From Ilyobacter polytropus DSM 2926 (GTDB taxonomy: Bacteria; Fusobacteriota; Fusobacteriia; Fusobacteriales; Fusobacteriaceae), in the NCBI RefSeq assembly GCF_000165505.1, contig NC_014632.1, forward strand, positions 1,054,001-1,118,000: a stretch of DNA of 64,000 bases, written 5' to 3'. Below, piece after piece: positions 50,352 through 64,000 of the stretch. The notes beneath the pieces are model-generated. The model was given only the letters and a program-made list of their open reading frames with translations. It was not told the origin of the DNA and ran no database searches. Numbering within the stretch: position 1 is the stretch's first letter; every line of letters starts with the position of its first letter. Both the position numbers and the translations under genes were made by a program.

Positions 50352-50927
50352 TTATTTTTTTAATATAATATTGAGCCATTTTTCATTTTCTCTTCCAAGT
50401 CTAACATCTCTAGTAATCCAAATCTTCTCTAAAATAAATTCTGAATTTTCAACAACTTTTTTTATACTAGCTTCATCATAATAATTGAAAAATCTCCCAT
50501 TTCTAACTTCTTCAAAATCTCCATATTTAAAACTAGCATATAACACACCATTTTCCCTCAAGGCTTTGAAGCAATTGGACAAGACTTTAGAAACTTTATT
50601 TTTAGGAATGTGCAGTATAGAGGCACAGGCCCAGATTCCATCAAAGTCATTTTCAAATTTCATTTTAAGCATATCTAATTTTAAGACTTTTTGTTTTATA
50701 AATTTTGATGCTCTTTCAATTAACTCATCAGATAAATCAACAGAGGTAACATTATACCCTTTATCTAAAAAATATTTGCTGTCACGACCACTTCCGCAGC
50801 CTAAATCAAGAATAAAATCTCCATTATTAAAATAAGATAAAAATTGTTTATATGCTTCATTCATATCAGCTTCAACTGTATTATAAAAAAAATCTTCAGC
50901 ATTATTGTTGTAATAATCAATAGTCAT
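50352..50927 (-). CDS. class I SAM-dependent methyltransferase
   Basis: A 191-residue Rossmann methyltransferase: DFILDLGCGSGRDSKYFLDKGYNVTSVDLS (motifs I and II), DGIWACASILHIPKNKV and LYASFKYGDFEEVRNGRFFNYYDE. The pattern is that of small-molecule (UbiE/tellurite-resistance-like) rather than DNA methyltransferases; no DPPY or PCQ motif is present. It starts 9 bases after the PLD-helicase gene stops, so the two are coupled, which is notable for a restriction-like locus. AGGAGAAG precedes the ATG. Confidence 0.88.
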   Translation of the reverse strand: MTIDYYNNNAEDFFYNTVEADMNEAYKQFLSYFNNGDFILDLGCGSGRDSKYFLDKGYNVTSVDLSDELIERASKFIKQKVLKLDMLKMKFENDFDGIWACASILHIPKNKVSKVLSNCFKALRENGVLYASFKYGDFEEVRNGRFFNYYDEASIKKVVENSEFILEKIWITRDVRLGRENEKWLNIILKK

Positions 50928-50936
50928 AAACTTCTC

Positions 50937-53291
50937 CTAAAACTCATATTTTCTTTTAAAATAGTCCTTTATCCGATAAGTAATCCTTAATTTAATTTCA
51001 TTTATTAAATCAGAATTCTGATCTATATATTCAAAAAAATCATTTTTTATTTCAAAAGTCCCATTAGATTTGTCATAAAAAAATATTTTACTTGAACTTT
51101 TTATTAAAGCGTTAACTGGATTTCCTAAGATATGACTTCTCAATTTTTTGCTAGACCAATTGGTTAAATTTTTATTATTTTTATTATTCAGATCTTTTAA
51201 ATGTATTCTATTATCATAAAAACTTTTAAAGTTTTTTTCTAAATCTTTAATGGAAACGCTTTTTACTATTTTATCATTAGAAATGAAACTAAGTAGAATT
51301 GGCATCTTATAAGACTTAGTCATTTTAGTCTTTTCTAACATCATTAAAAAATCATGTATATTGTTATCAAGCCAATTTTTCTCTTGGTCAGACAAGTCTC
51401 CGACATACTTCAAAAAATTAAGCCAACTTTTAAATTCTGTTAAATATATTTTAATCGGATAATTCCCATGAGTGTAGACATCTAAAATAGTTGGCTTCTT
51501 TTCAATTTCAGATTTTATCCTAAAATATTCATTTTTTAACTTTTCTTTCAGTGGCTCAGATTTTTCCTTAACACTATTAAAATAGTCAATATATTTCAAA
51601 TCAAAATTCACGCTACATCCTGAAGGCAGATTCACGTCCAACGGAGATATAATTTTGGATTCTTTTTCTGAAGGTTTGTAATCTCCACTTAAAAATAAAG
51701 GTTTTAATATAGCACCTTTATAGTTACCTACAAAATCTAAAACTCTTAACTTTGTTTTACTTTCGGAAGTTCTTAACCCTCTTCCCAATTGCTGAATAAA
51801 AATTGTATATGATGTTGTAGGACGCAAAAACATCACAGTATCTATCGATGGTATATCTACACCTTCATTAAATACATCAACAACAAATAATAAATCTAAC
51901 TTACCATTTTTAAATTTATCAAGTATCTCAGTCCTGGATTTACTTGAAATTTCACCTACAATAAAATCACAATTAATATTCTTATTTTTAAAAAAATTAT
52001 TCATAAATTTACAATGGTTTACACTTGCACAAAAAGCTACAGTTCTTTTGTTTTTATAAAAAATATATTTTTCATAAATTTGTTCAGCTCTCTCTTTAAC
52101 CATAAGTCTATTTTCTAGTATATTTAAATCATACTTCCCACTTCTCCAAGGAATCGTATCATATTTTATCTCGTCATAAATTCCAAAATATTCAAATGGT
52201 ACAAGCCATCCATTATTAATACCTGTTTTCAAATTACATTCATATGCAATATTGTAGTCACATAACTCATAAATATCTCCATTATCAGCTCTATCTGGGG
52301 TAGCAGTCAATCCAAGTAAAAATTGAGGTTCAAAATACTCTATAATTTTTCTATATGTCGGGGAATCTGCATGGTGGAATTCATCTACAACAATATAGTC
52401 AAAATAATCCTTATCAAAATAATTTTCATTTAAATATCCATTTTTACCCAAGGTGCTTACACTTGCAAAAATAATATCTTTATCCTTATCTTTTGTATCA
52501 CCCTTGAAAAAACCGTATGCTTTTTCTTTCGAATGTACGTTTTGAAATGATTCCATAGCTTGAATTAAAATTTCTTCTCTATGGGCTATAAATAAAATCT
52601 TTTTAAAATTAAGAGAATCAAAAGCCGATAAAAAAGTCTTACCTAATCCTGTGGCAACGATAACCATTGCTTTTTTGAAACCTTCTTCTCTAGTTGCTGA
52701 AAGTTCATAAAGTGCTGGTATCTGAAATTTAATTGGCTCTAGAACTTTTGAAGATGGTAAAATATCAAATGAAATATTAGGATTATTTACAAACTCCTTC
52801 TCATATTTTCTTAACCACTCAATAGTTAAATCAAAGCTATTTTTTTCATACAACTCCTTAAAATGTTCAACTATTTGTTCAAAAGAATTTTTATTTTCAG
52901 TTTTTTTCAGATTATAATTCCACTCTACACCATCAACCAAAGCAGAATAAGATACGTTAGAAGACCCAATAAATACATCACCTTCGGTATCTGAGTATTC
53001 AAAAATGTAAGCCTTTGGATGAAAAGAAGTGTTATTGTCATTTTTAAATAATTTAATTTTCTGAAGAGAACTCAGCCTATAAAGTGCATTTGGCTCGGTA
53101 ATATTCATGTAATTGCTGGTCAGTATTTTTATTTCACAATTCCTTGATTTTGCATTTTCCAGTTCATTAATGAGCAGCTTTATCCCGCTATCTCTTATAA
53201 AAGAAACATTAATATATATTTTTTTTGCTTTTCCGATGCACTCAGAAAGAGTTTGATACATATTTTTGCTTTGATTCGTTATTAAATTCAT
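50937..53291 (-). CDS. PLD-nuclease and SF2-helicase fusion, restriction-like
   Basis: A protein of about 784 residues. The N-terminal 170 residues form a phospholipase-D-type nuclease with HPKAYIFEYSDTEGDVFIGSSN (HxK and downstream Asp/Asn). A DEAD/DEAH helicase follows: IPALYELSATREEGFKKAMVIVATGLGKT (Walker A), VVDEFHHADS (Walker B), LTATPDR (motif III), and SYTIFIQQLGRGLRTSE (motif VI). The last 200 residues are unassigned and basic. Such fusions occur in restriction and defence loci. Start: GAGGCGAATT precedes the ATG at 53291; the earlier ATG at 53336 has no ribosome site but cannot be excluded. Confidence 0.85.
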   Translation of the reverse strand: MNLITNQSKNMYQTLSECIGKAKKIYINVSFIRDSGIKLLINELENAKSRNCEIKILTSNYMNITEPNALYRLSSLQKIKLFKNDNNTSFHPKAYIFEYSDTEGDVFIGSSNVSYSALVDGVEWNYNLKKTENKNSFEQIVEHFKELYEKNSFDLTIEWLRKYEKEFVNNPNISFDILPSSKVLEPIKFQIPALYELSATREEGFKKAMVIVATGLGKTFLSAFDSLNFKKILFIAHREEILIQAMESFQNVHSKEKAYGFFKGDTKDKDKDIIFASVSTLGKNGYLNENYFDKDYFDYIVVDEFHHADSPTYRKIIEYFEPQFLLGLTATPDRADNGDIYELCDYNIAYECNLKTGINNGWLVPFEYFGIYDEIKYDTIPWRSGKYDLNILENRLMVKERAEQIYEKYIFYKNKRTVAFCASVNHCKFMNNFFKNKNINCDFIVGEISSKSRTEILDKFKNGKLDLLFVVDVFNEGVDIPSIDTVMFLRPTTSYTIFIQQLGRGLRTSESKTKLRVLDFVGNYKGAILKPLFLSGDYKPSEKESKIISPLDVNLPSGCSVNFDLKYIDYFNSVKEKSEPLKEKLKNEYFRIKSEIEKKPTILDVYTHGNYPIKIYLTEFKSWLNFLKYVGDLSDQEKNWLDNNIHDFLMMLEKTKMTKSYKMPILLSFISNDKIVKSVSIKDLEKNFKSFYDNRIHLKDLNNKNNKNLTNWSSKKLRSHILGNPVNALIKSSSKIFFYDKSNGTFEIKNDFFEYIDQNSDLINEIKLRITYRIKDYFKRKYEF

Positions 53292-53445
53292 ATAATTCGC
53301 CTCGAAATATTCATTATCACTGATTTTGTATAGCATAAAATAACTATAATAAATATTACCATAACTAATATTTGATTAACAAGGGGGACTTTATTAAAGA
53401 TTATCTTATTTTTAATGTTTTCTTTCTATAATATTTATAAAATAC

Positions 53446-53482: not shown

Positions 53483-53679
53483 ACAAATTTAATTAATTTT
53501 TAAAATCACTGGCGCCCCCAAGGGAACTAGCCTATCCACAAAATCATATTTTATATTCCATTCTAATTGTATAGTGTAAATATAATTTTTTTCTAACTAT
53601 TAAAAACTGTTAAATTTATTAGAAATTTGATAAAGATATTTATTTTCAAAATAATAACTTAGGTTATTTAATAAAATCA

Positions 53680-55128
53680 TTATCTTTTCCCAGGTATATA
53701 ATCTATCCCCGGACTATTATTGGGTATATAATCTATTCCAGAAGTATTACTAGGTATATAATCTATTCCAAAACTATTATTTGATATATATCCTAACCCT
53801 TTTCTATTTAAAAGTTCTTTAGAAACACTGCCTAAAACATGCTCAATATCAAAATAACTTTGAGCTACTGCACTTTCATATTTTTTTATACCTGCATCTG
53901 CAACTATGTACCCTCCAATTGATATCGCAGTAACTACAGCACCTCCAGGAACAATACCAAGAGCTACAGCACAAGTAGCAGCACCCCCAGTAATAGCCGC
54001 TCTAACACCTGCTCTAACTGTATCTTCAGTGAATTCATTTAAACTTATTTTTCCTTTTGACAAATAATATATTGTTCTTGTTTCGTCAAATATAAAGGTG
54101 GCTAATCCGTAGTTTAAAGACGTTCCGATTAATTTAGTTGAAATATTTACCCCATCTTTAGTTAATGCAGTTACAACATATTTTTCTCCTACTTTTTCTA
54201 TAATTCCTTCCGAAACATAAACTGCTACATAGGTTGTACCTGTATCTTCTGCAACATTAATTATTGCTTCTTCAATCTCTCGTTCTTCATTGTATACTTT
54301 CCATCCATTTCCCACGGTTGATATGAATCCTGCTACAAATGCTGCATTTCTTGCTACTTCTTTTTTACTAAAACTTTTTTGTTGGGGTTCATTTTTTTTC
54401 ACAAGTTCTTTCGTTGCTAACTTTATTTTATGATCTTGGAAATTCTTACTATAGATCTTCCCCATTTTTTCTCCTAGATTTTCTTTTTCTATAGTTTTTA
54501 TTGTTGACTTAACAATATTTTCTTTTGTAACAAATTTCTTAGGGATTTTTCTTAATCCATTTTCGATATTTTTTGCTTGCACTGACTCTTTCCCAAAGAT
54601 TGCACTAGTATTTTTTATTATGTCATCATGGATATATTTAATATCCTGTAGTGCAGAAGTTTTACTATCTAAATAATCCATTAAAATATGATCTGAATAA
54701 ATTAATCCTGCAAATGCTTTTGCCTGCTTTCTAGGAAGGCCTGTATATTTTATTACTTCATCTGTCATCGCATCAACTTGATTTCTCCATGCTGATACTA
54801 TTTCCTGTTTTGTGACTCCCTCCTTGATTAAGTTTTGTAAATATTCATTGTGCTCAAATGGAATGCTTCCCGAAAAACCCCAGTGCGCCCAATTTCGATG
54901 ACCTTCCATACCAAATTTTTTACTTACATCTCCAAAGGGCATTTTATTGATATCATCAACTATGGAGCTTATACTTTTAGCAGCCAACCTTAATTCTTTA
55001 TTATTCCCGCTACTAAAACCATAATGCTCAATAAAAATATTAGCGTGTTCTTGATTACTCGGAAGAGCTAACGAAAATCTTAAAATTATTAAATGAAAAA
55101 TTATTAGCGTTACATTTCTTAAAGCCAT
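53680..55128 (-). CDS. exported protein with C-terminal GIDYIP repeats
   Basis: A 482-residue protein with a signal peptide (NVTLIIFHLIILRFSLALP). Residues about 70-160 hold GHRNWAHWGFSGSIPFEHNEYL and a helical DEVIKYTGLPRKQAKAFAGLIYSDHILMDYL segment with several His and Asp, possibly a metal-dependent enzyme. Residues about 375-425 are a Gly/Ala-rich hydrophobic segment (AGVRAAITGGAATCAVALG, GGYIVADAGI). The C-terminus has three or four 10-residue repeats, GIDYIPxNxS. I do not recognise the family. GAGGAGAG precedes the ATG. It lies downstream of another exported-protein gene. Confidence 0.7.
   Translation of the reverse strand: MALRNVTLIIFHLIILRFSLALPSNQEHANIFIEHYGFSSGNNKELRLAAKSISSIVDDINKMPFGDVSKKFGMEGHRNWAHWGFSGSIPFEHNEYLQNLIKEGVTKQEIVSAWRNQVDAMTDEVIKYTGLPRKQAKAFAGLIYSDHILMDYLDSKTSALQDIKYIHDDIIKNTSAIFGKESVQAKNIENGLRKIPKKFVTKENIVKSTIKTIEKENLGEKMGKIYSKNFQDHKIKLATKELVKKNEPQQKSFSKKEVARNAAFVAGFISTVGNGWKVYNEEREIEEAIINVAEDTGTTYVAVYVSEGIIEKVGEKYVVTALTKDGVNISTKLIGTSLNYGLATFIFDETRTIYYLSKGKISLNEFTEDTVRAGVRAAITGGAATCAVALGIVPGGAVVTAISIGGYIVADAGIKKYESAVAQSYFDIEHVLGSVSKELLNRKGLGYISNNSFGIDYIPSNTSGIDYIPNNSPGIDYIPGKR
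53693..53800. repeat. 30-bp tandem repeats coding for GIDYIP units
   Basis: Three consecutive 30-bp copies starting at 53693, 53723 and 53753, each beginning GGTATATAATCTAT, plus a degenerate fourth at 53783. They are in frame with the exported-protein gene and could expand or contract without a frameshift. Confidence 0.8.
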
Positions 55129-55160
55129 AGCTCTCTCCTCATCTCATTAAAAAATTCAAT

Positions 55161-56251
55161 TTAATTTATTTCTATTTTCGGCAAAACTTTTAACCACTGC
55201 ATCTCTAATTTTGATTGGTCTGCAATTTCATTATACAAATTTTCTCCTAAGTAATTTTTAAATTTTTTTGAGTATTTATATAAAGTTGGTGCGTATTTGA
55301 GTGTACTGTATATCCAATAAGAGGACTTATCTTCGCAAAATTTAAAGCTGATCTTTTCATTAAATTTTGATTTTTTGAATTAACTTTTCCGAAGTCTCCG
55401 TACATAAGTGCTGTTGCGTAAATATTTTCATAGTTCATTGCATAATTTAACGGCAGATCAAAGATTTTTAATCTTGCTATAAAATCAACGTTTCTAAAGC
55501 ATGACTCTAAATTTTCTTGATATTTATTCAATATTTTTATTTTTAAATAATTTTTATCATAATCTCTATAAAGTATGGACCTTAATTCTTCTAGTTTTGC
55601 CCGAGAGTAAAAGTAAAGATTTCTTTCAGTTCGATAATCTCTTATCATTCTATAATAATTTTCTGTGAAAATATCTCTACTATTTTCTTTATAGAATGCG
55701 TTATAAATTCTTACAGCGGCATCATTTTCTGTTCTTTTTTTATATTTTTTTTTCTTAGTGTCCCAATAACGATAAAAGCCATCCCAATTTAAATTAAAAA
55801 ATAAATTATGAAAAGGTATTGCTTCTTTATAAAAATTTGTTACTACATCTCTCTTAGAATAATTCCATGTAATTTTTGAATTATCTTTTAATCCAGTTTT
55901 TATATCTACATAATTCCAATAGTAATCGTAATAGTAAGCTACATTCCATGTATTTACGAGATGTAAAAATTTAGCAAAATATAATTCATCTATCTCGTAA
56001 CCCGGTTTTTTAAATTTTTCAAGAAGCTCTTCCAACTTATAAATTGTTAAATTACTATACTCAATTGCACTATCTGAGTCATATATTGAATTAAGGTAGC
56101 TATAAATAATTTCTCTTTGGCTATCATTTAAGTTTAAATTTTTTGTTATCTCATTATTTTTCATAAGATATAGATCATATTCATCCCAGTTATCAGCTAA
56201 ACATAATATTTCTAAAATTATAATAAAAACTATAATACTTATTTTTCTCAT
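55161..56251 (-). pseudogene. exported protein, frameshifted at an A6 run near its C-terminus
   Basis: The main frame, 55247-56251, starts with a signal peptide (KISIIVFIIILEILCLADN) and is rich in Tyr, Asn and Lys, but loses sense at about 55390. Another frame continues KKSKFNEKISFKFCEDKSSY, WIYSTLKYAPTLYKYSKKF and ends WLKVLPKIEIN at 55161, giving a compact gene that stops 32 bases before the next start. The two join if the six A in AATTCAAAAAATC (coding strand) were seven. As written, the protein ends in an unrelated 30-residue tail. It is a secreted protein of unknown family. AGGAGAAG precedes the ATG. Confidence 0.65.
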
Positions 56252-56437
56252 ATTCTTCTCCTAAATTTTATTGAATTTAATATCTAAATCTCCCTATAAT
56301 TCATCTTACTTTTATTTATATTGGTACAATTGTGGTGAACTAGTTCATGAAGTTCGACACACTTATATATAATTTTTAGAATTTTCAAAATGCTAATATT
56401 TTAACTATAGTATATTGTCCAAAATTGTCTTGATCTT

Positions 56438-56827
56438 TCATTCATATTCTCCTCTAATAATTTTTTTTATAAAAGGTAGATCAGCTGCTAAAATATCATA
56501 GTTTTGATAATCTTCTGGATTAATCCAATGAATATCTTCATGTTCAATTAATAATACTTCTCCAATATAGTCTCTAATTAAAAATGAGTGTATCCTGACT
56601 TTAAAAGTATCATATTCGTGATCACTCGAAATATAGTATTCATGACCTCGTATAGAGATATTAAGTTCTTCCTTTAGTTCTCTTTTCATGCACTCCTCTA
56701 TAGATTCTCCAACTTCTAATTTCCCTCCTGGGAGTTCCCATTTTCCACCAAATTTTTTATCATAAGGTCTTTTAGCAATCAAAATTTTGTCATTTTTAAA
56801 AATTATTCCAGCAGTTACTTCAATCAT
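56438..56827 (-). CDS. NUDIX hydrolase, MutT-like 8-oxo-dGTPase type
   Basis: A 129-residue MutT-type protein: IEVTAGIIFKNDKILIAKRP, GGKWELPGGKLEVGESIEEC (beginning of the NUDIX box) and MKRELKEELNI. Members remove oxidised dNTPs or other modified nucleotides. Its ATG overlaps the stop of the SRA-HNH gene by 8 bases (ATGATTGA), so the two are coupled. MutT-type genes frequently accompany helicase or nuclease defence genes, and here the substrate could be a modified nucleotide. Confidence 0.9.
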   Translation of the reverse strand: MIEVTAGIIFKNDKILIAKRPYDKKFGGKWELPGGKLEVGESIEECMKRELKEELNISIRGHEYYISSDHEYDTFKVRIHSFLIRDYIGEVLLIEHEDIHWINPEDYQNYDILAADLPFIKKIIRGEYE

Positions 56828-57887
56828 TGAAATCACCTTTTACTTTTTCATTAAGTTTACTTTTATCAATTTCTAAATCTAAAGCATGCATTTTCCTATG
56901 ACAGTTAGGACAAAGAGCCGCCACATTTGTTATAGAATCTTCTCCACCATTTGACAACCATTGAATATGATGAACCTCTAAATAAGGTTGTTTATCCTTT
57001 GTTAAAAATGGGGCTTCCTCCTCACAAAGTTCACATTTACCCTTTGCTCTTCGTTTTGCATATTCTACAACATGTTGATTTCTTTCATAAGTTGTGGTTT
57101 CCACATTCCGTTTACTACTTACTTTTCTTGAATTGGCTATATTTTTTATGAGCTGTTCATCACTTAATTTCCTTATTTTATTTTCTCTTTTTTCTATTAT
57201 ATTTTTTAAATCTTTTAATCGAACTTCTTTTTCTACAGTTTTAAGTTTAAGTGGGAATATCCAAACTCTCCTTGAGTTTCCGTCTGCATCATTTTGTTCT
57301 TCTTGAAAAGGATTCTTTACTAGTTTTATTTCTCCCCTAAAAGTATATTCTCCAGCATTAAATACTTCAAACAAATAAACTGTAATTCCATTTTTTCCAG
57401 ATTCATTTAAAGTTTTATTTTGCATAAATTCTAAAGATTGGTCTCCAGTCTGGCCCATACCAGTATAATACAAAACATCCTCTTCCCATCTATCATCATA
57501 AAGAGATTTTGTATGATCTGAAATTATTAATAGACTATTTGTAGTATTACTTTTTCTCATGCCTCCTGAATTCCCACATTTAAAAACATTGTATAAATCC
57601 GAATTATTTAATATACCTCCTTGTTTTAATCCAGATGGGGTTATCTTATGAATATTTCTAAAATAAGTATGTGTATCTACCTCTATCCCATCATTATACA
57701 AGTACCCATTTTCATAAAGTCCTAATTGCTTAGCTTTTTCTCTTAGAAAAATTCTAGACTGCCTAGGATACTCTACACCACTGCTATCTTCAACTATTGT
57801 TGATGTAGAGCCATTTTGATATGAATGAGTGATTATAAAATTTTTACCTTTATGTTTTAATTCTATTTTTTTTACTATTCTGTTCAA
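56820..57887 (-). CDS. SRA-like/HNH endonuclease, McrA-type (type IV restriction)
   Basis: A protein of about 355 residues. The middle (residues about 95-235) matches the SRA-like domain of McrA-type enzymes: YNVFKCGNSGGMRKSNTTNSL, LIISDHTKSLYDDRWEEDVL, YYTGMGQTGDQ, YLFEVFNAGEYTFRGEI and RRVWIFPLKL. The C-terminus is a classic HNH: CELCEEEAPF, LEVHHIQWLSNGGEDSITNVAALCPNCHRKMH. Such proteins bind and cut DNA carrying modified cytosine or phosphorothioate. Start: TTG at 57887, 6 bases after AAGGAGG, is better spaced than TTG at 57893. It is the third gene of the operon from 59821. Confidence 0.9.
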   Translation of the reverse strand: MNRIVKKIELKHKGKNFIITHSYQNGSTSTIVEDSSGVEYPRQSRIFLREKAKQLGLYENGYLYNDGIEVDTHTYFRNIHKITPSGLKQGGILNNSDLYNVFKCGNSGGMRKSNTTNSLLIISDHTKSLYDDRWEEDVLYYTGMGQTGDQSLEFMQNKTLNESGKNGITVYLFEVFNAGEYTFRGEIKLVKNPFQEEQNDADGNSRRVWIFPLKLKTVEKEVRLKDLKNIIEKRENKIRKLSDEQLIKNIANSRKVSSKRNVETTTYERNQHVVEYAKRRAKGKCELCEEEAPFLTKDKQPYLEVHHIQWLSNGGEDSITNVAALCPNCHRKMHALDLEIDKSKLNEKVKGDFND

Positions 57888-57936
57888 AGCCAAACCTCCT
57901 TAATTTTTATCTATAATTCACTATATAAAATACTCA

Positions 57937-58713
57937 CTATGGAGTTTTCAAATAACCGATATATAATTCCATGTCTTGATAGTCTTGGAGTATGTATGGA
58001 CCTACAATTTGATTTTCATCGAGATTTTGATAATCTTGGAGTATGCACAGACCGAGATTTTTCCCCTTATCCTTTAAAATTTTGATAAGTTTATTCATCT
58101 CTTTATGATTTGCAGCTATTTTATTTTTATCACTAAAATTTGTATTGAAAACTTGAATAATAAAATAAGCTTTTTTAATATTTCTATTTATGGATTCTTC
58201 CAATGTTCCTATCAACCCTGTAAGCAATTGGTATTTAACTCCAGATATATTTTTAGGAATTTCAGTTCCAAATAACTTTTTTAAAATTCCTTCTATTCTT
58301 AAGCATTTGTTAGAATCCTGTCCATTTAGCATATCAATTTTAGATTTTAAGTAATAATTAGATAAATCATAATTCCCAAATGACTCATTAACTTTTCCTT
58401 CAACAGATATTAAAATATCTTCTGAATCATGAGTAGCTAGTAACAATAAATCATGTACCCTTCCTTGACCGTATTCATCAATTTTTGTTTGATATTCAGG
58501 GTATGCAAACTCAATATTAAGATTGGATCCTCTTCCATTTAATAAAAAAAGTTGCTGAATAGAAAGAGATCTATTAATTACGTATTCAGATGCTAATTCA
58601 TAGGCGCTATAACCTTTTTTCCATTGTTTCATAACGTTTTTAGGCGGGCATTCATTTTTCCAGTCAGTAACATTATTGATTATATTTCCTGTATTTTTAT
58701 TTTTTATAATCAT
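57937..58713 (-). CDS. DUF6946-like PD-(D/E)XK-superfamily protein
   Basis: A 258-residue protein: CPPKNVMKQWKKGYSAYELA at the N-terminus, then VHDLLLLATHDSEDILISVEGKVNESFGNY, in which Asp and the VEGK pair form a nuclease-like D...ExK motif, and GVKYQLLTGLIGTLEE. The layout matches the DUF6946 family of putative nucleases (recognised by pattern, moderate confidence). The C-terminus contains an internal duplication: ILQDYQ occurs twice, 17 residues apart, from a 51-base tandem duplication. AAGGAG precedes the ATG. It lies 19 bases after the HNH gene. Confidence 0.75.
   Translation of the reverse strand: MIIKNKNTGNIINNVTDWKNECPPKNVMKQWKKGYSAYELASEYVINRSLSIQQLFLLNGRGSNLNIEFAYPEYQTKIDEYGQGRVHDLLLLATHDSEDILISVEGKVNESFGNYDLSNYYLKSKIDMLNGQDSNKCLRIEGILKKLFGTEIPKNISGVKYQLLTGLIGTLEESINRNIKKAYFIIQVFNTNFSDKNKIAANHKEMNKLIKILKDKGKNLGLCILQDYQNLDENQIVGPYILQDYQDMELYIGYLKTP
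57976..58053. repeat. imperfect direct repeat within the DUF6946-like gene
   Basis: TTGATAGTCTTGGAGTATG (57976) and TTGATAATCTTGGAGTATG (58027) begin two 27-base copies with 4 mismatches, 51 bases apart and in frame. Confidence 0.75.
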
Positions 58714-58732
58714 TTTATTTCTCCTTTAATTT

Positions 58733-59821
58733 CTATTTGTCCCAGATCATAAATCCCTGATTATATGCTATCTGATAAATAGGAATAATCGTATTTTTCA
58801 AGTTTTCTATAAAATACTCCTTAGGAATATTTTTATTTAAGTCCATATATTTACTTATGGTAAAATAATCTTCAATTTCTTTTTTTCCAAAGTTATAATT
58901 AAGAGCTGTTTTTAATCCAATGTACTGAATATCACAGTATCTGTCTAAAAATTTATCCAGAGAAGGTAATTTATCACTCTTACTACTATTTATTTCCTTT
59001 GTTGTTGGTATTAAATTCCACAATTCGTCATGAAGAACAAAACTCCATGGTACAAAGTGATCAATACTTATAGTATCTTCTGATCCTAAAATTTTATCTG
59101 TATAAATGTTGTTTATTTTATTAATTTCAATTACATTTTTCCAGTATTTCTTGGCCCCGGTTAGATTTCTTTTTAGTGGAGCGCAGATTTTAAATGGTAT
59201 TGCAGGAACATTTGGATTTCTGGTTTGAAGAAAAAAAATGAGTTTATTTAAAATCCATCCCTCCATTATTGCTTGATTTTCAAATATATAGTTGAACCAC
59301 TTTTCATTAATTTCAATACTTTTTTCTTGCTTATTTATTTTATAAATTCCCATATCCCCTTTATTTGACAATTCCAAAATAATATTGTTTTTATATTGAT
59401 CCTTTATTCCTGTCAACTCAGGATAGAAAGGGGATAATAGTCTGTACGGAACAAATTTAGAAAACTCTTTTATAAAATAATTTAAGTTTTCATCCTTAAT
59501 TTCATTTAATTTCCCAATCAACTCTTCTTCCAATATATCTTTTTCAAATCCATAATTGTTGTATAAATAAATTACTACTCTATTTAACTGGTCTATCCCC
59601 CCAAAATGTAATTTATATTCAATTAAAGAGTACCAGGATTTTGCAATCATTCTTAAAATTAATTCTTTAAATAAAATTTTTTCTTTCCCATTTTTTATTT
59701 CTTCAAAAACCGCATAGAACCAATACAATTTATAACTATTTTGAATATATTTTAAATCCAACATATTAGAAAAAGCTTGGATATTTAATCTTTGACTTAT
59801 CGGCAATTTAATATATTCCAT
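58733..59821 (-). CDS. HNH endonuclease domain protein
   Basis: A 362-residue protein. Residues 1-170 are a helical, Tyr- and Lys-rich region (LKYIQNSYKLYWFYAVFEEI, LILRMIAKSWYSLIEYKLHFGG). The HNH core is near residues 255-295: ISIDHFVPWSFVLHDELWNLIPTTKEINSSKSDKLP, with DH, the WNL and the N-x3-K-x2-LP tail of this HNH class. It is the first gene of the four-gene operon ending with the NUDIX gene. TGGAGG precedes the ATG. DNA is the likely target. Confidence 0.85.
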   Translation of the reverse strand: MEYIKLPISQRLNIQAFSNMLDLKYIQNSYKLYWFYAVFEEIKNGKEKILFKELILRMIAKSWYSLIEYKLHFGGIDQLNRVVIYLYNNYGFEKDILEEELIGKLNEIKDENLNYFIKEFSKFVPYRLLSPFYPELTGIKDQYKNNIILELSNKGDMGIYKINKQEKSIEINEKWFNYIFENQAIMEGWILNKLIFFLQTRNPNVPAIPFKICAPLKRNLTGAKKYWKNVIEINKINNIYTDKILGSEDTISIDHFVPWSFVLHDELWNLIPTTKEINSSKSDKLPSLDKFLDRYCDIQYIGLKTALNYNFGKKEIEDYFTISKYMDLNKNIPKEYFIENLKNTIIPIYQIAYNQGFMIWDK

Positions 59822-59916
59822 CTAAACCCTCCAGAATCTTTTCATTGAAACCAATATCCCTTTCAGTAAATAGTATATCCCATTAAACTCCTATAGTCTA
59901 CGTATATAAGTCATAT

Positions 59917-59942
59917 AAAAAAGTCGGAATAATCCGACTTTC
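59917..59942 (-). terminator. terminator after the first OMP remnant
   Basis: AAAGTCGGA and TCCGACTTT pair around ATAA; the minus-strand side continues with a T run, three bases after the remnant's stop. Confidence 0.8.
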
Positions 59943-59944
59943 AC

Positions 59945-60043
59945 TTAAACTCTATATTTAAATTCACCCTCTATACTCAGTTTCTGATCTCCATTAAAAT
60001 CATTTCTATACCTAAACTCTGACGTACTACTTACACTCACCGC
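59945..60043 (-). pseudogene. 3' remnant of an outer-membrane beta-barrel gene (copy 1)
   Basis: A 32-codon open stretch with no start codon or ribosome site: AVSVSSTSEFRYRNDFNGDQ then KLSIEGEFKYRV and stop. It has the alternating polar/hydrophobic pattern and terminal strand of an outer-membrane barrel, and retains its own terminator. A nearly identical end occurs at 61508-61579. It is probably the displaced 3' end of a host gene split by integration. Confidence 0.65.
59954..60016. repeat. direct repeat copy 1, attachment-site-like
   Basis: This 63-bp stretch matches 61517-61579 with 6 mismatches, and contains an exact 27-bp core (59984-60010) shared with 61547-61573. The two copies flank the Fic gene, and the second abuts the prophage. 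Confidence 0.75.
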
Positions 60044-60064
60044 TTAAGCTTAATATTATATCAA

Positions 60065-61255
60065 TTAGTTGTTTTTTAATATATAATGAAATTTTCTTCC
60101 AACTTTTTTCTTGGAAAAAATCTCCATTTCTACCAGATCACTTAAATCCTTTCTAGCGGTTTCTTGAGAAACCTTATTTAATTTAATATAAAAAGCAATA
60201 TCAATAAAGCTTTTATCAAATTTAATAACTTTATCTATTAATTTTTCCTGACGATCATTTATTGATAAACCTCTATGCTCAATCTCACTGTAGATAACTT
60301 TTTTCAAATATTGTTTTTTAAAATCACCAGTAACTTTTTTTATGCTATCCAAAATCATTTTCGTATAAAAAAGAGCAAAATAGGTGACATCACTTTCATA
60401 ATCTTCAGAATTTTTTATGGCTTTATAATAGCTGCCTCTTGCTTCGGAAATTATATTAGATATTGAGAAATATTTAAAAAAATCATATCCATTTTGTAAA
60501 AGATACATATAAGTTAAAGCACGTGCAGTTCGGCCATTCCCATCATAAAAAGGGTGGACATATACAAAATAATAGTGAAAAATAACAGCTTTTAAAATAG
60601 GATGAATTCTCTCATCATCATCCTTACTCATAAATTCAAACAAAGAATCCATCATTTCTTGAACTTTTTCAGCTTCTGGAGGCACATATATCACTGCCTC
60701 TAAATTTCTTACTTCATTTTGATCCAGTCGATATTTAGCAACAATTTCATCTTTATCTAAAGTTTCATTTGTTACTATATTATATATTTTTAAAAGAACT
60801 TCTTCTGAAATGGCTTCTCCAATATTTCCCAGAATATAAAATAATGCCTGATAATTGTTAAATACCATTTTTTCATCTTTATTTTTAGGTTTCACCTCAT
60901 TTTCAATCATTTGTTTTGTACGCTTTTTAGTAGTATGGGCGCCTTCTATTACACTTGAATAAAAGGCTTCATCGGTTTGAGCGTCAATAACTACATTTCT
61001 TTTAACTTCTTCATCTAATTCTTCAAAAATATTTTTTTTAGCTAAATCATCAATTAAAGCTATTCTTTCTTTCAGTTCTTTTGACAAAACTACAAAAATA
61101 TTTTTACCCTTTTGATCAATTAAAGGTAATTCAACCGCCTCTTGTTTTCGATATTCCAATAATTCATTCCATTTTACTTCTAGTTCTTCCCCTGGTTTCA
61201 AGCGATATAATAGGTCTGTTTTATTCATATAATTTGGTGAATTGTATTTTTCCAT
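60065..61255 (-). CDS. Fic-family AMP-transferase with in-cis inhibitory motif and C-terminal winged helix
   Basis: A 396-residue protein. The inhibitory helix SSVIEGAHTT ([S/T]xxxEG) is at about 99-108, the Fic active site VHPFYDGNGRTARALTYM near residue 238, and a C-terminal HTH (INDRQEKLIDKVIKFDKSFI, VSQETARKDLSDLVEMEIFSKK) near 330-390. This is the class II Fic layout: AMPylation of a protein target, held off by its own Glu, perhaps with autoregulation through the HTH. GAGGGGGCG precedes the ATG. It lies alone between two attachment-like repeats. Confidence 0.92.
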   Translation of the reverse strand: MEKYNSPNYMNKTDLLYRLKPGEELEVKWNELLEYRKQEAVELPLIDQKGKNIFVVLSKELKERIALIDDLAKKNIFEELDEEVKRNVVIDAQTDEAFYSSVIEGAHTTKKRTKQMIENEVKPKNKDEKMVFNNYQALFYILGNIGEAISEEVLLKIYNIVTNETLDKDEIVAKYRLDQNEVRNLEAVIYVPPEAEKVQEMMDSLFEFMSKDDDERIHPILKAVIFHYYFVYVHPFYDGNGRTARALTYMYLLQNGYDFFKYFSISNIISEARGSYYKAIKNSEDYESDVTYFALFYTKMILDSIKKVTGDFKKQYLKKVIYSEIEHRGLSINDRQEKLIDKVIKFDKSFIDIAFYIKLNKVSQETARKDLSDLVEMEIFSKKKVGRKFHYILKNN

Positions 61256-61428
61256 AACTATCGCCCCCTCAATTAAATTTAACTCTAAATATTATACTTA
61301 TTTACTACTAGTTTCCTACTAATTTAATTCTAATTATAAACTTATTTAATAAGTATTCTATCTATATACAATAGAAAAGTCAATCAAAAGCTAAAGATAT
61401 AAATTAGATGTTTTTCATTTTTAAATTT

Positions 61429-61457
61429 AAAAAACCAGAGTTTAAAACCCTGATTTT
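61429..61457 (-). terminator. terminator downstream of the prophage late genes
   Basis: AATCAG and CTGGTT, with inner pairs, form a hairpin followed on the minus strand by a T run. The remaining bases of 61256-61507 are AT-rich with no gene. Confidence 0.5.
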
Positions 61458-61507
61458 CTAATATTTAAATATATATTTCAAAATTACATAACAATTAATT
61501 TGATTTA

Positions 61508-61579
61508 TTAAAACCGATATTCAAATCCACCCTCTATACTAAGTTCCTGATCTCCATTAAAATCATTTCTATATTTAAA
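61508..61579 (-). pseudogene. 3' remnant of an outer-membrane beta-barrel gene (copy 2), at the prophage edge
   Basis: 23 codons, FKYRNDFNGDQELSIEGGFE then YRF and stop, encode a typical C-terminal barrel strand ending in Phe. The phage holin-like gene runs into its first bases in another frame and stops there, so phage DNA is joined to the gene end exactly at this sequence. Confidence 0.65.
61517..61579. repeat. direct repeat copy 2, probable prophage attachment site
   Basis: Second copy of the 63-bp repeat (see 59954), with the exact 27-bp core at 61547-61573. Phage lysis genes begin immediately to the right, so this is the best candidate for the prophage att site. Confidence 0.7.
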
Positions 61580-62066
61580 GCCTGGCATACACCTTGCCAT
61601 CACCATTTAGTATTCCCACTTTTAAATCATCCGCTATATTTTCAATTTGAGAGTTACTCACTAAAGTTTTATCTCCAAAAAATTCAACGTTCAGAGCTTT
61701 ATTTTTAAATTTATCTATAACCTCTATTTTTGATTCTGTATTTTCTATATAGTGATTTCGAAAATATATATTGATTTGAGATACCAGTTTTTCTATATAA
61801 TTTATAATTTTTTTCTTGGAAAATAAAATCTTTAAAATAAACTTAGGAATAGATGGCAAAGAATTTATAGACTTATCATACAGGTCCAATACCCTGAACA
61901 ATTTTTCCTCTCCTTTCCCATTCCCTAGCTCAATTTCAGCCTGAACCATCAATTGATAAATGGCATTAAATATATACTGCTTTCCCCCAAATTTTACCAC
62001 CGCAAAAATTGATCCTACAAACATTATCAAAAATATAAAGTTTCCTATTGTCATAAACTCTTTCAT
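61575..62066 (-). CDS. phage holin-like protein (LLH superfamily)
   Basis: A 163-residue protein with one N-terminal transmembrane helix (TIGNFIFLIMFVGSIFAVV), then YIFNAIYQLMVQAEIELGNGKGEEKLFRVLDLYDKS, the helix-GxGKGEEK pattern of LLH-type holins. The C-terminal half is longer than usual and not recognised. It overlaps the preceding small gene by 4 bases (ATGA) and is next to an amidase, the usual lysis cassette. Its stop lies in the OMP remnant. Confidence 0.7.
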   Translation of the reverse strand: MKEFMTIGNFIFLIMFVGSIFAVVKFGGKQYIFNAIYQLMVQAEIELGNGKGEEKLFRVLDLYDKSINSLPSIPKFILKILFSKKKIINYIEKLVSQINIYFRNHYIENTESKIEVIDKFKNKALNVEFFGDKTLVSNSQIENIADDLKVGILNGDGKVYARL

Positions 62067-62320
62067 CTTATCCTCTCCTTCAAAAGTTCTATTGCTGTTT
62101 TTAAATGTTCCAGAATGCCTTTGTGCACCTCATTATGTGTGCCGCTATACAACTCAAAGTCCTCTTTATCCAATTTTTTCTTATCTAGATATATTTCCAC
62201 CTTTTTAAGCTCTCCCTGCAATCTCCCGATTTCTCTCCAAAGATATGATGAAATAAAAAACAGTACTGCTATTAGCCCCAATCTTACATCTTTTAATAAC
62301 AGACCTATTAATGTCATCAT
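62063..62320 (-). CDS. small phage membrane protein of the lysis cassette
   Basis: An 85-residue protein with one or two short hydrophobic segments at the N-terminus (MMTLIGLLLKDVRLGLIAVLFFISSYLW), then a long charged helix. The position between the endolysin and the LLH-like holin suggests an antiholin, spanin-like or second holin component. It starts one base after the amidase stop and overlaps the holin-like gene, so translation is coupled. Confidence 0.65.
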   Translation of the reverse strand: MMTLIGLLLKDVRLGLIAVLFFISSYLWREIGRLQGELKKVEIYLDKKKLDKEDFELYSGTHNEVHKGILEHLKTAIELLKERIR

Positions 62321-62321
62321 T

Positions 62322-62855
62322 TTATATCCGCCTATCTACAATTTCTCTTATTCCCTGCTTGAGGGCCGTTACTGTTTCAGTGAGCTTTAGTTCTTCTTTA
62401 TATTTCAGAGAATCTATAAAGCATGATTCTACTATTACACAGGGAGCTTTTGTCTTCCACAGGATATTAGCTCCTCTTTCTTCACTGCCTATTGCTTTAA
62501 TTCCTCTATCAGGATACTTAAGGTGCTTTACAAGCTTACTCTGTATAATCCCAGCCATCTCCTTTCCAGTCTTGGAGGATTCGCAGTAAAGAACCTCAGT
62601 GCCCTGGGCCTTTCCATCTGCAGCATTCAAATGCAACTCAATTACATAATCCGCATTCAACGAGTTAATTTCTTCAGGAAGAGTTCCATACGTGTTTCTT
62701 CCTTTCAAAACAATATCTATATCTTTCCAGTCATCGCCTTTAAAAAGCTCTAAGGTCATTTCTAATACGCAGTCATATTCTTTTAGATTCAATCTTCCAT
62801 TTACTGCTCCAGGATCAACAAACGAATGTCCAGGAACCAATACAACTCTTTTCAT
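62322..62855 (-). CDS. N-acetylmuramoyl-L-alanine amidase (phage endolysin)
   Basis: A 177-residue Amidase_3 protein without a signal peptide: VVLVPGHSFVDPGAVNG with the first zinc His, LNADYVIELHLNAA with the second zinc His, and APCVIVESCFIDSLKYKEEL with the catalytic Glu. It cleaves the amide bond between muramic acid and the stem peptide. GGGGGG precedes the ATG. The holin-type gene follows. Confidence 0.9.
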   Translation of the reverse strand: MKRVVLVPGHSFVDPGAVNGRLNLKEYDCVLEMTLELFKGDDWKDIDIVLKGRNTYGTLPEEINSLNADYVIELHLNAADGKAQGTEVLYCESSKTGKEMAGIIQSKLVKHLKYPDRGIKAIGSEERGANILWKTKAPCVIVESCFIDSLKYKEELKLTETVTALKQGIREIVDRRI

Positions 62856-62863
62856 ATTCCCCC

Positions 62864-63442
62864 CTATACAAAATACTTTATAGCTTCAGGCATATCTGGA
62901 TACAAAGTTTCAATTTCTATAGAAATATCGTTGTACTTTCCTGGAAGATCCAACCAAACATTCCTAAATGAATCTCTCACAGCTTTCATTTCCAAAGTTT
63001 CTTCAATATCCCCTCTAAGTACTGCCTTATCATAGAGGTCCAATGCGTCAAAATCCTTTTTCCTCTGCAGTCTTGCTTTTGTTTTTTCAGAATCAATTGT
63101 TACAGATTTTTCTGTAATATAGTCACCCCTAGTTTTCTCCATTATTGTTCCATCTATAATTTTTTGAGTTTCTGGGTTGTATAAAGTGATTCTCCCATCG
63201 AGTAATATTTCATTGGAATTAAGCTGCCTCTGCCCTCTTTCTAATTTCTCTTCTTCAGAGGCTTCTCTTATAGAGTCGCTCTCTTGAAGGTATGTTATGA
63301 AATGTGGGAGATCGTCCCCATAAAATTCAATGGCTTTTCCTTCATAATAACTTTTATAATCTTCTCTTGGAGACTCTCTAACTTCATATACTAACGACAT
63401 CCCTGTCTTTGCTTTATTCCTATCCAGATAGATATATCTCAT
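62864..63442 (-). CDS. phage tail-fibre-associated protein (assembly/chaperone candidate)
   Basis: A 192-residue protein without a signal, located directly after the tail-fibre gene (stop and start overlap as TAATG), the usual place of a fibre chaperone or assembly factor. It contains GRITLYNPETQKIIDGTIME, then a charged middle and LDLYDKAVLRGDIEETLEMK. Phage tail-fibre assembly proteins often hold such DG-x-I/E segments. The upstream TTG at 63460 overlaps the GGAGGAGGAC ribosome site, so the ATG at 63442 is preferred. Confidence 0.7.
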   Translation of the reverse strand: MRYIYLDRNKAKTGMSLVYEVRESPREDYKSYYEGKAIEFYGDDLPHFITYLQESDSIREASEEEKLERGQRQLNSNEILLDGRITLYNPETQKIIDGTIMEKTRGDYITEKSVTIDSEKTKARLQRKKDFDALDLYDKAVLRGDIEETLEMKAVRDSFRNVWLDLPGKYNDISIEIETLYPDMPEAIKYFV

Positions 63443-64000
63443 TACGCTGTCCTCCTCCAAATGTTAACTGCTCTATAACTATTTAAGACACTAAAAGCAG
63501 CTCCACTTCCTTGATAGTCTGTATAAGGTGAAGCTATTCCAGTACTTTCCCCTCCACTTGATGAGGTGTGAGGAAATCTTGCTGATACTGAGTTTTCCTG
63601 ATAGAATCTAGAACCTGCTCCGCTCGCCGAAGTATATCCATAGTCCTCGACATAGGATGAACTTCTCTCTCCCGATAATTTACCTGTTTGATGATAATGA
63701 AGTGGCTGAGTGTGGTTATGAGAGTTAACCTGATGCCTATGTGAAGGTATATTTGTAACTGAAAGTGTTAACTGAGAAACGCCATCTTCCTGTCCCACTC
63801 TATAAACTGATCCATCAGCACCAAACAACATCCTTCCCTCAAGCTTTTCCCAAGTAGTTTCTATCCATTTTACAGCTGGATTTTCTGAGCTTTCTGTTAT
63901 CCAGTAATCACCTATACCGTAATAACAATCGGAAGTTTTAAAAGTTGTGGCAAGACCGTCCTTTAATGCCTTTGAAGTTGCTATGACATTACTATCATCT
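63442..64000 (-). CDS. phage tail fibre or collar protein, C-terminal part
   Basis: The frame is open to the end of the window, so the N-terminus is outside. Visible: WEKLEGRMLFGADGSVYRVG, a collar-like head, then IPSHRHQVNSHNHTQPLHYH (His-rich), Ser/Gly-rich segments and the terminal SVLNSYRAVNIWRRT, all typical of trimeric phage tail-fibre tips (YRAVNIWRRTA is the common C-terminal element). It ends with a TAATG overlap with the next gene. This gives the prophage its host-binding tip. Confidence 0.85.
   Translation of the reverse strand, partial: DDSNVIATSKALKDGLATTFKTSDCYYGIGDYWITESSENPAVKWIETTWEKLEGRMLFGADGSVYRVGQEDGVSQLTLSVTNIPSHRHQVNSHNHTQPLHYHQTGKLSGERSSSYVEDYGYTSASGAGSRFYQENSVSARFPHTSSSGGESTGIASPYTDYQGSGAAFSVLNSYRAVNIWRRTA

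Follow-up and report, generated by a model that had tools for sequence, protein, structure and literature searches.

The window considered here, a stretch of 64,000 nt from Ilyobacter polytropus DSM 2926 (NC_014632.1, positions 1,054,001-1,118,000; the genome, of 3.13 Mb, is in three contigs), carries at 56438-59821 an operon of four minus-strand open reading frames (ORFs), in the order HNH_4, DUF6946, SRA-HNH and NUDIX. The last two, coding for an endonuclease with SRA and HNH domains and for a NUDIX hydrolase, form a true and very widespread unit. The locus is most likely a type IV restriction locus with accessory genes: three of its four genes are found in recurrent associations, whereas DUF6946 is not. 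In the reading that we favour, to which a probability of about 0.6 may be assigned, this prophage-carried locus would restrict DNA containing 5-methylcytosine (5mC) or 5-hydroxymethylcytosine (5hmC), and its NUDIX enzyme would hydrolyse 5-modified dCTP; here we infer biochemistry, specificity and antiphage activity alike. In the following, G000 indicates the genome of the window, G042 a congeneric sister genome, L112 the G042 locus, and other L numbers the loci fetched for comparison.

Association of SRA-HNH and NUDIX genes

The association was evaluated over 82 genome loci: 80 SRA-HNH loci from other genomes, among them those of Firmicutes, Proteobacteria and archaea, together with the window and G042. 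In 39 of them a NUDIX gene immediately adjoins SRA-HNH in the same orientation, most often overlapping it by open frame, and fused SRA-HNH/NUDIX genes are present in two genome loci (L066 and L069). All 39 NUDIX domains of this family found in the SRA-HNH loci adjoin SRA-HNH, none being located elsewhere in those loci. Among viral contigs, NUDIX stands beside SRA-HNH in 20 of 32 close relatives, with one fusion. These counts bear out the tie between NUDIX and a modified-DNA nuclease that had been proposed in a first-pass annotation of the window. Since the NUDIX gene may come before SRA-HNH, after it or fused to it, the pair was either formed more than once or survives rearrangement.

The SRA-HNH endonuclease

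The SRA-HNH gene (56820-57887, minus strand; 355 aa) is recognized by Pfam HNH (3.5e-11), by the PADLOC mREase_IV model (1.9e-19) and by phrog_15103 (8e-87). Three regions can be distinguished in its product: an extra N-terminal part (residues 1-84), an SRA domain (about 88-215) and an HNH domain (about 260-340). The SRA domain has no Pfam match. In an AlphaFold2 model obtained from 26 sequences, the predicted local distance difference test (pLDDT) score of the SRA region is mostly above 90, and the Foldseek matches of the model are ScoMcrA (top, 2.8e-11), KRYPTONITE, SUVH5, UHRF1, the SRA of MspJI, and SauUSI. Residues C285, C288, H306, H307, N321, C326, C329 and H330, corresponding to catalytic and putative Zn-binding positions, are invariant in the 26 sequences. 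Assignment of the protein to the type IV (modification-dependent) restriction endonucleases, already made in the first-pass annotation, is well supported by the structural model together with the genome context.

The same arrangement of an N-terminal SRA and a C-terminal HNH is found in the endonucleases TagI, ScoA3IV and TbiR51I (PMC6212794). The HNH profile of the window protein matches EcoKMcrA, ScoMcrA and TagI; sequence similarity to TagI is restricted to the HNH (6e-6). ScoMcrA, the top structural match, is organized as SBD-SRA-HNH (5zmm, PMC7461809), where SBD is a sulfur-binding domain; none was identified in the window enzyme, and membership in the phosphorothioate-SBD group was rejected. 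The TagI and ScoMcrA papers searched make no mention of a partner NUDIX.

Residues 1-84 are modelled with low pLDDT and have no Pfam match, so that their identification as a known reader domain was rejected. No plasmid match was obtained for them, and the sole relative found is a 98-aa ORF from another fusobacterium (L118:8129-8425), beside a gene judged by eye to be GIY-YIG-like. A free-standing SRA-like protein of 138 aa, 42% identical to the SRA region, is encoded on contig 2 of G000 (L116:9444-9860, at ~546,450), and relatives of it are present as short frames in many Fusobacteriota.

The NUDIX hydrolase and its likely substrate

The NUDIX gene (56438-56827, minus strand) starts with ATG and encodes a protein of 129 aa, matching NUDIX at 5.4e-20. 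Its Nudix box (G-x5-E-x7-RELKEE) is intact, with R49, E50, E53 and E54 invariant in an alignment of 21 sequences, and is kept in 38 of the 39 copies from SRA-HNH loci. The family profile matches 5x1x, annotated as MutT (4.8e-45), E. coli NudG (2rrk, 8.6e-38) and MutT itself (1mut, 4.5e-27). The window protein shares with E. coli NudG/Orf135, a 5-methyl-dCTP pyrophosphatase, both the Nudix box and a C-terminal motif of the APADIP type, which is shared by the family and reads LAADLP in the window copy; D116 is invariant. With regard to 5-methyl-dCTP/dCTP specificity, this motif is suggestive only. Unlike NudG, the window NUDIX lies among restriction genes carried by mobile elements, and its assigned substrate is putative.

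PADLOC lists PDC-S07, which the window NUDIX matches at 2.7e-42, as a candidate made up of one protein; the loci compared here show it accompanying type IV enzymes, as well as the HNH_4/methyltransferase set described below. Co-localisation of PDC-S07 with type IV restriction has been reported for Streptococcus suis, in 23 of 23 cases (PMC12813430), and MutT homologues have been described beside SauUSI homologues (PMC7641849). In the loci analyzed here, the NUDIX gene adjoins PLD-helicase genes of the SauUSI type in L144, L146, L250 (Hymenobacter), L251 (a S. aureus record), L288, L294, L302 and L323. Because SRA-HNH and SauUSI-type nucleases, both readers of modified cytosine, share this NUDIX, a modified-cytosine nucleotide is the most economical candidate for its substrate.

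Proposed mechanism and its alternatives

According to the proposed mechanism, the SRA domain would flip out and read 5mC or 5hmC in the DNA of an infecting phage, with cleavage nearby by the HNH domain. The NUDIX enzyme would convert the corresponding free nucleotide, 5-methyl- or 5-hydroxymethyl-dCTP, into its monophosphate. The phage would thereby be deprived of modified precursor, and modified cytosine would be kept out of host DNA, which would otherwise be open to attack by the nuclease. HNH_4 would be a second nuclease of the same locus class, and would probably strike the same target as well. Type IV restriction is commonly regarded as the work of a single nuclease. If the mechanism is true, a NUDIX that clears the nucleotide pool accompanies modified-cytosine nucleases of unrelated types, and these systems have two points of action, the modified DNA and the modified nucleotide; a way is suggested for a nuclease-carrying cell to escape self-poisoning when modified dCTP appears, and the widespread candidate PDC-S07 gains a function. 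No C5-cytosine methyltransferase was found in G000 or in two other genomes of its genus, the count for the class being 45 of 98; this lack fits a nuclease acting on 5mC or 5hmC, and is suggestive only.

Several observations weigh against restriction coupled to hydrolysis of modified dCTP. About half of the genome SRA-HNH loci are without NUDIX, which is therefore not essential. The fused NUDIX of L069 has lost the catalytic glutamates, which points to a non-enzymatic role in some members. The NudG assignment is drawn from profile and motif evidence; among solved structures the best match is the MutT-annotated 5x1x, and substrate calls within the NUDIX family are unreliable. Finally, a C5 methyltransferase is present in 10 of 44 SRA-HNH carriers, in a comparison not matched for phylogeny, and depletion of these enzymes was for both reasons rejected as proof of the target.

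Two other roles were considered for the NUDIX protein. It might be a MutT-like sanitiser of 8-oxo-dGTP, or a general damage-response enzyme, limiting mutation or damage while restriction takes place: the profile matches include MutT, several relatives are annotated as 8-oxo-dGTP diphosphatase MutT, and G000 contains only one other, distant NUDIX match to this profile. However, the pairing with modified-cytosine enzymes of two nuclease types, in prophages as well as in plasmids, and the presence of NudG's motif make this role rather unlikely. The gene overlap, the fusions and the degenerate Nudix box of one fused copy could instead indicate a regulator, or a signal-degrading enzyme, that restrains the nuclease as long as no nucleotide signal appears and no modified nucleotide is bound; the nearly complete conservation of the Nudix box, and the half of SRA-HNH genes that do without NUDIX, leave this with little probability.

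Organization of the operon and insertion of DUF6946

The first-pass annotation had described four closely spaced ORFs on one strand, including two nucleases of different HNH types, and in this it was correct. The HNH_4 gene (58733-59821, minus strand; 362 aa; Pfam HNH_4, 1.7e-10, as opposed to Pfam HNH for SRA-HNH) is separated by 19 bases from DUF6946 (57937-58713, minus strand; 258 aa), which is followed after about 49 bases by SRA-HNH, the latter overlapping NUDIX by 8 bases. Purine runs resembling ribosome-binding sites are found upstream of the first three genes. SRA-HNH could start at a TTG either at 57887 or at 57893; the former is the most likely start, because AAGGAGG is located a few bases upstream. 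A scan for sigma-70 promoters gave no more hits than in shuffled sequence. A hairpin followed by a T run (59922-59939, minus strand), noted by inspection only and absent from the listing of the terminator scan, is a likely terminator between the operon and a neighbouring Fic gene.

The DUF6946 protein matches PF22187 (1.1e-41) over positions 2-186 of the 214 of the profile, and an HD...VEGK pattern, a putative PD-(D/E)XK site, is visible by eye in its translation. A PD-(D/E)XK-like protein had been noted in the operon by the first-pass annotation, and clan CL0236 is the PD-(D/E)XK clan. DUF6946 has been assigned to CL0236 (PMC10584680).

When the window was compared with L112 by blastn, two blocks, 53510-57629 and 58699-63563, aligned at 95.5% and 93.7% identity, respectively, against 89.5% for the flanking core genes; values above those of the core genes would fit a mobile element whose spread was later than that of its surroundings, or which is more constrained. 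The two blocks abut exactly in G042, at L112 15012/15013. The additional 1,069 bp of the window (57630-58698, minus strand) contain all but the initial ~15 bases of the DUF6946 gene, together with ~85 codons from the start of SRA-HNH; in G042, SRA-HNH begins 23 bases after HNH_4 and encodes 274 aa. DUF6946 was found in none of 97 other Fusobacteriota and in none of 361 Clostridia, was absent from all other fetched SRA-HNH or HNH_4 loci, apart from one weak plasmid match, and gave no matches in viral contigs and phages. DUF6946 and the ~85 N-terminal residues of SRA-HNH are thus most likely a recent local insertion; the choice between gain here and loss in G042 refers to one pair of genomes, and gain is favoured because DUF6946 is absent elsewhere. 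The gene would code for a recently inserted nuclease, probably independent of the others.

The HNH_4 protein and the wider gene set

The HNH_4 protein consists of a helical N-terminal region and of an HNH of the Cas9 type, in which the DH at 254-255, N269, N278 and K281 are invariant in alignments. Its profile matches the Cas9 HNH at 1.2e-5, and the catalytic DH...N...N..K pattern is the same; unlike Cas9, the protein is only 362 aa long, has no RuvC or guide machinery, gives HNH_4 as its only Pfam match and shows no Cas9-like overall fold, and its identification as Cas9 was rejected. An AlphaFold2 model, made from an alignment that left out plasmid sequences, has a mean pLDDT of 91.4; it had no fold match in the PDB below 0.001, its N-terminal region being unlike any solved structure. 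A PADLOC run, proposed in the first-pass annotation, identified SRA-HNH and NUDIX as reported above; a match to ZorE was restricted to the HNH domain (8.2e-7). Zorya type II was rejected, as no ZorA or ZorB model match was obtained among the scanned neighbours.

Relatives of HNH_4 are rare in Fusobacteriota and patchy elsewhere, but 64 of the 319 genomes of Lachnospiraceae have one. Of 40 Lachnospiraceae loci, 19 have a small methyltransferase gene no more than 300 nt from HNH_4, 10 contain a NUDIX gene and 6 a SauUSI-like gene. In 20 control regions of the same genomes (400 kb), consisting of random genomic DNA and not of other defence islands, no methyltransferase of this family, NUDIX or SauUSI-like gene was found. 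HNH_4 genes overlap or touch the methyltransferase and some of the NUDIX genes, and NUDIX and methyltransferase are fused in one open frame directly before HNH_4 in L311:3342-4358 and L317:5052-6086. L144 and L302 contain a gapless run of SauUSI, NUDIX, HNH_4 and methyltransferase genes, and L072 has the SRA-HNH version of it (SRA-HNH, NUDIX, a small PD-(D/E)XK-like gene, HNH_4 and methyltransferase). HNH_4 therefore belongs to a recurrent set with a small methyltransferase, a NUDIX and a modified-cytosine restriction enzyme. MazG-like nucleotide pyrophosphohydrolase genes are located near HNH_4 in L128 (annotated) and in L142, L143 and L146 (by eye), possibly replacing NUDIX. In a different arrangement, at L142:6674-10040, the HNH_4 gene is followed by a NERD-like gene and by one resembling, by eye, a C5-cytosine methyltransferase.

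The window holds all parts of the set within 9.5 kb, split between the HNH_4/SRA-HNH/NUDIX operon and two genes located 3-6 kb further on, both relevant to the locus and overlooked, like the prophage setting, by the first-pass annotation. One codes for a SauUSI-like PLD nuclease-helicase (50937-53336, minus strand; 799 aa) with Pfam matches to PLDc_2, ResIII and Helicase_C and a PADLOC match to mREase_IV (9.6e-91). It aligns to SauUSI (7clg, a PLD-helicase-SRA protein) at 4.3e-91, over residues 17-643, the C-terminus of about 155 residues being unmatched; neither the Pfam scan, which gave no DUF3427 match, nor the SauUSI alignment revealed a C-terminal DUF3427/SRA reader, whereas the SauUSI relative of L144 has DUF3427 (6.4e-91). 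The gene lies outside the operon and inside the recurrent set, and is absent in G042. The other (50352-50927, minus strand; 191 aa) codes for a small class I S-adenosylmethionine (SAM) methyltransferase (Methyltransf_25, 8.2e-17; PADLOC mad2, 1.3e-20), a member of the family found next to HNH_4 in other genomes; a literature search on the mad2 link found nothing relevant.

The first-pass annotation had suggested an undescribed system. This is not the case for the NUDIX, which was already a PADLOC candidate with a published link to type IV restriction (see above); the set of type IV enzyme, NUDIX, HNH_4 and methyltransferase was not found in the literature or libraries searched, and HNH_4 relatives from two such loci matched no model of PADLOC-DB 2.0.0. 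The HNH_4-methyltransferase unit may be regarded as a second lead, as a candidate only.

We tentatively consider it possible that an SRA-HNH or SauUSI-like enzyme, a NudG-type NUDIX, HNH_4 and the SAM methyltransferase act jointly as a composite defence module, attacking modified phage DNA and removing modified precursors, of which the window prophage region would carry a scattered version. It is also possible, if somewhat doubtful, that SRA-HNH and NUDIX are one system within a prophage defence cluster, where HNH_4, DUF6946, PLD-helicase and methyltransferase are independent and were assembled by island dynamics. DUF6946 is an insertion; HNH_4 is found in L072 only among the 80 SRA-HNH genome loci outside the genus; 18 of the 40 Lachnospiraceae loci show none of the partners; and plasmid relatives of HNH_4, in cyanobacteria and Hymenobacter, are located with DUF4007, cysteine desulfurase and PAPS reductase genes. 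Such clustering accounts less well for the overlaps with methyltransferase and NUDIX genes, in the face of empty controls, and for the fusions and contiguous runs; the controls being random DNA, it may still hold for the non-contiguous cases. That all four genes of the operon, DUF6946 included, act as a single composite system, as the first-pass annotation had it, is very improbable. Their strand and tight spacing in the window genome would agree with it, as would L072, where NUDIX is separated from HNH_4 by a small PD-(D/E)XK-like gene, although an unrelated one; but of the four families only the SRA-HNH/NUDIX pair and HNH_4 recur in related loci, and DUF6946, with the N-terminal extension of SRA-HNH, is missing at the orthologous site of G042 and in all other loci, and DUF6946 also from the Clostridia. 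The four-gene system was rejected on these grounds, DUF6946 being a lineage-specific insertion, absent from relatives.

Prophage setting and neighbouring genes

The operon lies beside genes for endolysin and tail proteins, and tail-fibre, baseplate, tape-measure, tail-sheath, portal and terminase genes occupy the 30 kb that follow; its place is therefore the lysis end of a prophage of the tailed-phage type. Two prophage-end genes at 53680-56251, coding for proteins of 482 and 334 aa with signal-peptide-like starts (by eye), have no significant Pfam or PHROGs match and are conserved in G042; the first ends with a short GIDYIPxN repeat. The Fic gene (60065-61255; PADLOC SoFic, 3.1e-50) is located between direct repeats of ~100 bp (59945-60046 and 61508-61609), 80% identical, which also occur in G042. 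At the opposite end of this prophage, L115:9435-17704 contains genes resembling, by eye, those of type I restriction-modification.

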